From Caulobacter sp. (GTDB taxonomy: Bacteria > Pseudomonadota > Alphaproteobacteria > Caulobacterales > Caulobacteraceae): DNA of 64,000 nt. Below are positions 28,258-52,921 of the stretch, in pieces. The stretch is taken from contig JAUSMJ010000027.1 of assembly GCA_030645575.1 (NCBI GenBank), positions 1 to 64,000 of the forward strand, in the 5' to 3' direction. The translations under genes and the position numbers were made by a program. Positions within the stretch are counted from its first letter, which is position 1. Each line of letters begins with the position of its first letter. Under the pieces are notes generated by a model, which searched no databases, was not told where the DNA came from, and worked only from the letters and a program-made list of their open reading frames with translations.

Positions 28258-28333
28258 GCGAGGGGCTCCGGAAGCTCCGGACAACTATACCTGCGACCCG
28301 CGCGATCACGAAGACCAACGCCCCACCCCCTCC

Positions 28334-28382
28334 TCCCCGCTCATCCTCGCGGAAGCGAGGACCCAGGTTTACGGCCGGTGCA
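28334..28382 (+). repeat. Left arm (A) of a perfect 49-bp inverted repeat
   Basis: TCCCCGCTCATCCTCGCGGAAGCGAGGACCCAGGTTTACGGCCGGTGCA. Confidence 0.95.
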
Positions 28383-28490
28383 CTCACCTCAAGGGATGTC
28401 TGCCTCCTTGAACTGTGAACGCCTTGCGGTTGATTAACGGTGTCACGCTATCTATAATTGCTCTTTTGGCAAACGCGCTCGAGCACCCCC

Positions 28491-28775
28491 ATGGCCTTCT
28501 ACGTCTACATCCTCGCGAGCCAGCGGAACGGGACACTCTATATCGGATCAACCGACAGCCTCGTGCGACGGGTCGGCGAGCATCGCGAAGGACTGATTCC
28601 GGGATTCACCAGCCGCTACGGCGTAAAGTGGCTGGTCTGGTACGAGGCTTTCGAGACCCGCAACGACGCCTTCCGCCGCGAGCGGCGGATGAAGGTGTGG
28701 CGCCGGGCCTGGAAGGTCGAACTGATCGAGAAAACCAATCCCGGATGGCGGGACCTGTTTCCGGAGATTTGCTGA
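28491..28775 (+). CDS. GIY-YIG nuclease family protein (small, single-domain)
   Basis: FYVYILASQRNGTLYIGSTDSLVRRVGEHREG; FETRNDAFRRERRMKVWRRAWKVELIE. Confidence 0.95.
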   Translation: MAFYVYILASQRNGTLYIGSTDSLVRRVGEHREGLIPGFTSRYGVKWLVWYEAFETRNDAFRRERRMKVWRRAWKVELIEKTNPGWRDLFPEIC

Positions 28776-28791
28776 GCCTCCCCCAAACCCT

Positions 28792-28819
28792 GCTCATCCT
28801 CGCGGAAGCGAGGACCCAG
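28792..28819 (+). repeat. Partial copy (B) of the same palindromic repeat core
   Basis: GCTCATCCTCGCGGAAGCGAGGACCCAG. Confidence 0.9.
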
Positions 28820-28873
28820 ACTTTTCGATGCAGCGGCTCATCGCGATGATTGGCGAACAGAGGCTGCCGTGAT

Positions 28874-28922
28874 TGCACCGGCCGTAAACCTGGGTCCTCG
28901 CTTCCGCGAGGATGAGCGGGGA
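28874..28922 (-). repeat. Right arm (C) of the perfect 49-bp inverted repeat
   Basis: Exact reverse complement of 28334-28382. Confidence 0.95.
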
Positions 28923-28963
28923 AGAAGGGGGGAGTTGAGGTCAGCAACGGGTGGGAAGCGTAT

Positions 28964-29221
28964 CTAAGCTAAAGTCTCGCTCCACCTGACAAGCCCATCA
29001 CTTTCCCATTCATTGAGGACATCCCGCGCTCTCCCCATCCTCGAAGGACGGTTGATCAAGAATGTGTAGGCAGGCTCGCCAACCACTTCCACTTGTCCTG
29101 AAAGGGCGTTCAAAAACGACAACACCAACCGTCGTTGATCGACGGAGACGTGATCATGAAACTCGACAAGGACTCTAGCGACCATTCGCTGACGATAGCG
29201 GACCTTCCAAGTGGCAGCCAT
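28964..29221 (-). CDS. Hypothetical protein (85 aa)
   Basis: MAATWKVRYRQRMVARVLVEFHDHVSVDQRRLVLSFLNALSG...; low-GC composition relative to neighbours. Confidence 0.5.
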   Translation of the reverse strand: MAATWKVRYRQRMVARVLVEFHDHVSVDQRRLVLSFLNALSGQVEVVGEPAYTFLINRPSRMGRARDVLNEWESDGLVRWSETLA

Positions 29222-52856: not shown

Positions 52857-52921
52857 GGGACATGCCCTTCAGTGCGTGTCCCTTGCCTGCCGAAGGGGGC
52901 ACGCACTGAAGGGCATGTCCC
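52857..52921. terminator. GGGACA-family long hairpin (T5), bidirectional
   Basis: GGGACATGCCCTTCAGTGCGTG ... CACGCACTGAAGGGCATGTCCC, 22-bp perfect outer stem between convergent genes. Confidence 0.8.

Follow-up and report, generated by a model that had tools for sequence, protein, structure and literature searches.

Between a glutathione peroxidase gene (gpx) on one side and a Gfo/Idh-type gene on the other, the latter assigned from our own reading of the sequence, an intergenic cassette encloses a small nuclease gene within long inverted palindromic arms. It lies in the 64,000-nucleotide stretch of Caulobacter sp. DNA that was analysed as a whole and is termed the window below. The locus raises the question of whether such a cassette is a mobile unit and, if so, whether the nuclease is what spreads the palindromes. 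The preliminary description of this DNA had proposed a minimal mobile unit, by analogy either with REP elements and their RAYT transposase or with homing GIY-YIG endonucleases.

Architecture of the cassette

The arms of the cassette, as the preliminary description had placed them, are perfect reverse complements over 49 bp. The left arm (28334-28382, forward strand) consists of the palindrome GCTCATCCTCGC-GGAA-GCGAGGACCCAGG and the inner stretch TTTACGGCCGGTGCA, and the right arm (28874-28922, reverse strand) mirrors it. When mismatches are allowed, the inverted match covers 28326-28387 and 28869-28930 (62 nt, 95%, three mismatches); the likeness thus continues inward, as had been claimed, and also by about 8 bp outward, the outward extension reaching 12-20 bp in other copies. 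Comparison with these copies and with filled and empty sites indicates that the pyrimidine-rich left outer end (28326-28333) and the purine-rich right outer end that mirrors it (28923-28930), each of 8 bp, probably belong to the element, whose ends are approximate. Both arms bear their own 7-bp hairpin, TCCTCGC-GGAA-GCGAGGA, again in agreement with the earlier claim. The REP unit of the left arm (28339-28365, forward strand) comprises a GCTC tag, a 7-bp stem, a GGAA loop and a CCA tail, and the 31-nt window palindrome reads CCGCTCATCCTCGCGGAAGCGAGGACCCAGG.

A third, partial copy of the palindrome (28788-28819, forward strand, 32 nt, 97%) directly follows the nuclease gene; as single-stranded DNA it pairs with the right arm to give one long stem (-53.5 kcal/mol, z = -11.2), so that the stem-loop suggested beforehand was indeed recovered. 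The two form a REP pair of about 100 bp, a spacing resembling that of the gene-less pairs of the genome (66-107 bp), and we therefore read the cassette as a palindrome, a gene and a palindrome pair. Across the whole window, only one other exact 20-bp inverted repeat was found within 800 bp, an unrelated RAYT-type REP pair at 52857-52921. This pair, GGGACATGCCCTTCAGTGCG ... CGCACTGAAGGGCATGTCCC, is of the same kind as the palindromes around a Y1 transposase that the genome carries on contig C43. An 85-aa open reading frame adjoins the cassette (28964-29221, reverse strand) and gave no match in a Pfam search.

Inside the cassette, we detected no second gene and no transposase; its single open reading frame (forward strand, ATG at 28491 to TGA at 28775, 94 aa) matches PF01541 with 55.4 bits (cut-off 22.6), in line with the single-domain GIY-YIG nuclease first perceived as the only plausible gene there. 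The catalytic residues Tyr6, Tyr17, Arg27, Glu64 and Asn83 are intact and occupy invariant columns. An AlphaFold2 model predicts an intact GIY-YIG fold (mean pLDDT 96), and the closest solved structures retrieved by Foldseek are the GIY-YIG domains of UPF0213, Slx1 and UvrC. No match was obtained in an NCBIfam search. Pairwise dN/dS ratios among close copies of the gene range from 0.05 to 0.34, indicating purifying selection on the nuclease gene. Judged by its sequence, the window protein is a member of the GIY-YIG nuclease superfamily.

A dispersed palindrome family

The 18-nt core of the palindrome occurs 19 times genome-wide at up to 2 mismatches and not once with a reversed-pattern control, which excludes chance. 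A wider pattern, GCTCATCC-N-GACCCA, retrieves 52 palindromes in the 3.2-Mb genome, against none with its reversed control, and bears out the dispersal expected beforehand of a mobile unit. These palindromes are mostly paired with their tags outward, an orientation found in 20 of 20 exact pairs and likewise in the outer arms of the C21 triplet. Other palindrome types include CCCCGCGAAAGCGGGG and a CTTGT-loop type. As a candidate target, the flank motif GGTCCGCAATGGGTCG gave five matches in the genome as compared to three for the reversed-pattern control.

The arms form hairpins and are intergenic, as would be expected if they were simple terminators of transcription, or hairpins regulating a gene resident between them. 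However, their identity reaches far outside the stem (49 bp), an Rfam search returned no family, and tag-outward pairs occur by the dozen without a gene and are present or absent depending on the species. The dispersed gene-less pairs contradict the terminator reading, which we regard as scarcely credible.

Three copies carry the nuclease gene (C21, which is the window copy, C22 and C72), and the third palindrome copy is present in the C72 cassette too. Four shorter copies of 220-282 bp have kept both ends and lost part of the interior: the 243-bp form on C4 matches protein residues 13-42, the 282-bp forms on C18 and C74 match residues 69-90, and the form on C49 measures 220 bp. Contig C5 ends in a fragment that contains a piece of the nuclease gene, and two more GIY-YIG genes, on C73 and C23, have palindromes of other types on both sides. 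A GIY-YIG gene is found at most 400 bp away from nine of the 52 palindromes, against an expectation of 0.13.

About 60 bp similar to the 3' end of a Gfo/Idh gene recur in the flanks of the C18, C72 and C5 cassettes. A gene of this type also adjoins the window cassette, and copying of the cassettes may have taken adjacent DNA with it.

Filled, empty and exchanged sites in relatives

Presence and absence of the element between species could be followed at several sites. The suf site (C49) lies between two genes of the suf operon (sufD and sufS by sequence), the stop and start of which overlap in G057 and G048. It is empty in most of the genus, where the joined flanks match contiguously. A TGA stands on either side of the insertion, and the two may serve as functional stop and start. 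When filled, the site is occupied by palindrome pairs of type A in G000 and G007, type B in G055 and G056, type C in G045 and G066 and type D in G054. Types A, B and C are each dispersed over the tree built from the genes on either side, from which it follows that the occupant of the site has changed more than once. At the GST site (C4), G000 and G007 carry the insertion and G038 and G055 do not; relatives with empty sites, an expectation of the initial proposal, thus exist for both loci. None of the relatives examined has the dinG copy (C72), the gene of which is intact. No clear target-site duplication was detected, the suf site being ambiguous in this respect. At the GST site of G007, the cassette is found inside a RAYT-type palindrome pair, placing one REP system within another.

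The window copy beside gpx has a different history. It is shared by G045, G055 and G056 with the gene intact and the third palindrome copy also in place, has lost the nuclease gene in G007 and is reduced to a single fused palindrome in G066. It is missing from G038, G048, G054 and G057, and a clean empty site was not found for it, the intergenic region being rearranged in the relatives without the copy. The window copy is syntenic in four or five related species, which points to an insertion made long ago, and since decayed in certain lineages, rather than to a recent jump. The initial proposal of a minimal mobile unit is partly supported, by the dispersal and the empty sites of the family, and the REP/RAYT analogy is an apt one.

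Two side observations concern the gpx copies. In G056 (G056:C9), the left arm is separated from the nuclease gene by a second, nested palindromic pair of the TTCCCGGCGAAGGCCGGGATCCAG type, and the same nested element occurs in G007, where the gene has been lost. The G066 remnant, GCTCATCCTCGCGGAAGCGAGGATGAGC, is as expected if a deletion occurred between the two arms.

Association of nucleases and palindromes

Linkage between the nuclease and inverted palindromes is observed far beyond this genome. With an inverted-repeat score of at least 18 as the criterion and only loci with full flanks counted, 55 of the 92 GIY-YIG loci of the genus lie within an inverted repeat, against 0/92 when the upstream flank was reversed and 13% for flanks taken from mismatched loci. 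A second set was formed by the best 80 relatives in the genome collection, 75 of them with full flanks, and spans Alpha-, Beta-, Gamma- and Deltaproteobacteria, Bacteroidota, Patescibacteria and others; here 44 of 75 loci are flanked by inverted palindromes (reversed-flank control, 0/75). The enrichment beside GIY-YIG genes that had been anticipated for a mobile unit is thus seen at both scales. Flanking inverted repeats were also found on 31 of the 48 viral contigs having full flanks (control, 0/48). Among 108 arms forming a clear hairpin, 87 show a TCAT-like head and a CCA tail, as compared to 12% of shuffles. In all, the same nuclease type was encountered on 54 viral contigs, and elements may ride phages or be located in prophage flanks.

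The two partners also diverge together. Nuclease and palindrome distances are correlated (Mantel r = 0.35, p = 2e-4). A further control took genomes holding several nucleases and compared the likeness of each palindrome to that of the nearest nuclease in another genome with its likeness to those of its genome-mates; the palindrome followed the nuclease lineage over the host by 32 to 3 with 15 ties, the two comparisons not being fully independent and the p value of the latter (2e-7) being too small since its comparisons overlap. The same results bear on a conventional minimal transposon with its transposase located elsewhere and the nuclease as cargo. Long terminal inverted repeats and MITE-like deletion derivatives would suit such an element; however, a gene family linked to dozens of palindrome types across phyla, with matching divergence, is unexpected of cargo, and the cassette has no other gene inside and no clear target duplication. 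We hold this explanation to be extremely improbable.

A resident RAYT (Y1 transposase) could likewise move the palindromes, the GIY-YIG gene being a passenger. The genome itself has three Y1_Tnp genes, and across the genus the number of palindromes per genome correlates with the number of RAYTs with a rho of 0.36, versus 0.26 for the number of nucleases, a correlation that is weak and uninformative because the GIY-YIG nuclease is present in 66 of the 75 genomes. Nevertheless, the three Y1 genes of this genome have palindromes of another kind beside them, none of the window type lies within 1 kb of these genes, and 757 of the 1499 palindromes counted in the genus belong to genomes without any Y1_Tnp hit; by comparison, 42 of the 1499 belong to genomes without a GIY-YIG hit. 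The GTAG and CGTC palindromes were defined by Di Nocera et al. 2013 (PMC3733652), with the neisserial dRS3 as CGTC-1, and no RAYT flanked by CGTC repeats was reported there. With the Y1 genes standing beside other palindromes, the RAYT as mobiliser of the window palindrome class is largely refuted; we consider it very unlikely and rejected it.

A single-domain GIY-YIG protein of N. gonorrhoeae shares 58-61% identity with the window protein. Its gene is located within a large array of dRS3 palindromes, which surround it, one of them directly after the stop codon as in the window. The dRS3 repeat has many copies in Neisseria. A 2025 paper in Nature Communications reportedly describes Ssn, site-specific single-stranded GIY-YIG nucleases whose target is a repeated sequence of Neisseria, cut when the DNA is single-stranded; the neisserial Ssn is said to affect natural transformation. 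The repeats could accordingly be recognition sites that serve the nuclease in another role (limiting or shaping DNA uptake, cutting phages or plasmids, or regulating its own gene) and that owe their spread to recombination or replication errors unconnected with it, the gene being flanked since it is sited in repeat clusters. In favour of this are the gonococcal gene in its array, the transformation that its neisserial relative reportedly modulates through its repeats, the nucleases without flanking repeats and the lack of any known strand-transfer chemistry in GIY-YIG enzymes. On the other hand, derivatives of the gene with internal deletions and the same ends, filled and empty sites, and a palindrome type that tracks the nuclease lineage inside one genome would all be expected of a mobile unit and unexpected if a fixed nuclease had its targets scattered about. 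On balance, a pure recognition-site role seems to us a rather unlikely, if serious, alternative.

The flanking inverted repeat is absent at about 40% of nuclease loci, and in several palindrome-rich genomes, such as G015, G032 and G059, the nuclease flanks examined had no flanking palindrome, so that any action there would have to be in trans. The nucleases L031, L032, L033, L037 and L040, from larger Caulobacter genomes, are 64-69% identical to that of the window and have no flanking palindromes. Several of their host genomes are palindrome-rich, and these nucleases are possibly domesticated or acting in trans.

A proposed mode of spread

We think it likely that the cassette is a gene-bearing member of a REPIN-like mobile family in which a GIY-YIG nuclease replaces the RAYT and would drive the movement. 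An Ssn-like GIY-YIG nuclease would be carried between copies of the palindrome that it most likely recognises, and the shorter palindrome pairs would be gene-less derivatives of the cassette. The enzyme would nick the palindrome while single-stranded, at replication forks or in incoming DNA, and host repair would copy the palindrome-bounded stretch into the break, either at a new site or in replacement of another palindrome pair. GIY-YIG enzymes hydrolyse DNA and have no known strand-joining activity, for which reason nicking followed by host copying is proposed; it would fit both new insertion and exchange at existing sites. The cleavage specificity, the single-stranded substrate and the nuclease as the cause of spread are what we infer in this scheme.

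The recurrent partnership of nuclease and palindrome suggests that this enzyme spreads an extensive bacterial repeat class whose mobiliser had long been missing. Chances seem to us evenly balanced that the CGTC-REP superfamily across bacteria, the neisserial dRS3 among them, has its dedicated mobilisers in Ssn-like GIY-YIG nucleases. This would be a second REP system of independent origin, its palindrome pairs being copied, and families converted at fixed sites, by a hydrolytic nuclease for single strands together with host repair and without a transposase. With the nuclease gene found repeatedly between its own palindrome type and both diverging together, the question of the CGTC mobiliser becomes testable with one protein and one oligonucleotide. 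If true, a mobile unit can do without a transposase, spreading through cutting and host repair.

Comparison with known systems

DDE-type insertion sequences and their MITEs differ from the cassette in that no transposase gene lies between its inverted repeats. GIY-YIG homing endonucleases of the I-TevI type have in common with it the catalytic fold and possible copying by cutting and repair. The homing analogy of the preliminary description fails nonetheless, as there is no intron, intein or NUMOD domain, and the nuclease sits between long inverted repeats with no split target gene. REPINs and RAYT transposases (Bertels and Rainey 2011, PMC3116915; Nunvar et al. 2010, PMC2817692) come closer: the dispersed unit is a pair of inverted palindromes, the gene is flanked by the same palindromes and the majority of units are gene-less. 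They differ in the enzyme, which in the cassette is a GIY-YIG nuclease and not a Y1/HUH transposase, and in the class of palindrome.

The published CGTC-tagged REPs are alpha-proteobacterial, occur mostly as dimers and have a CGTC tag with TGTC or CCTC variants, a stem of 8-9 bp, a loop of 4-5 bases and an unpaired CCA tail, no dedicated transposase having been reported (PMC3733652). To their stem of about 8 bp, 4-base loop and CCA tail correspond 7 bp plus an A.C mismatch, GGAA and CCCA in the window. The window-type palindromes are likewise opposite-orientation dimers that do not flank RAYT genes, and many homologous arms have an exact CGTC tag (e.g. CGTCATTCCCGCGAAAGCGGGAATCCAG) or a TGTC tag. 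In contrast, the window palindrome itself has a GCTC tag and the A.C mismatch at the base of its stem, and a GIY-YIG gene is linked to it, whereas the published class is without a dedicated transposase.

Within the literature searched, and apart from the reported Ssn work, no paper was seen to connect GIY-YIG genes with REPs or dRS3. The window nuclease resembles Ssn in being a small single-domain GIY-YIG protein, in the 58-61% identity of its gonococcal homologue between dRS3 repeats, which may be the published Ssn, and in the target-like repeats near its gene and elsewhere in the genome. The pairing of nuclease and repeat is therefore probably not new. The Ssn work is said to stress repeat cutting and transformation, whereas a mobile cassette, deletion derivatives and site exchange are described here; this evidence for a mobile unit may be new, unless the Ssn paper contains the same.
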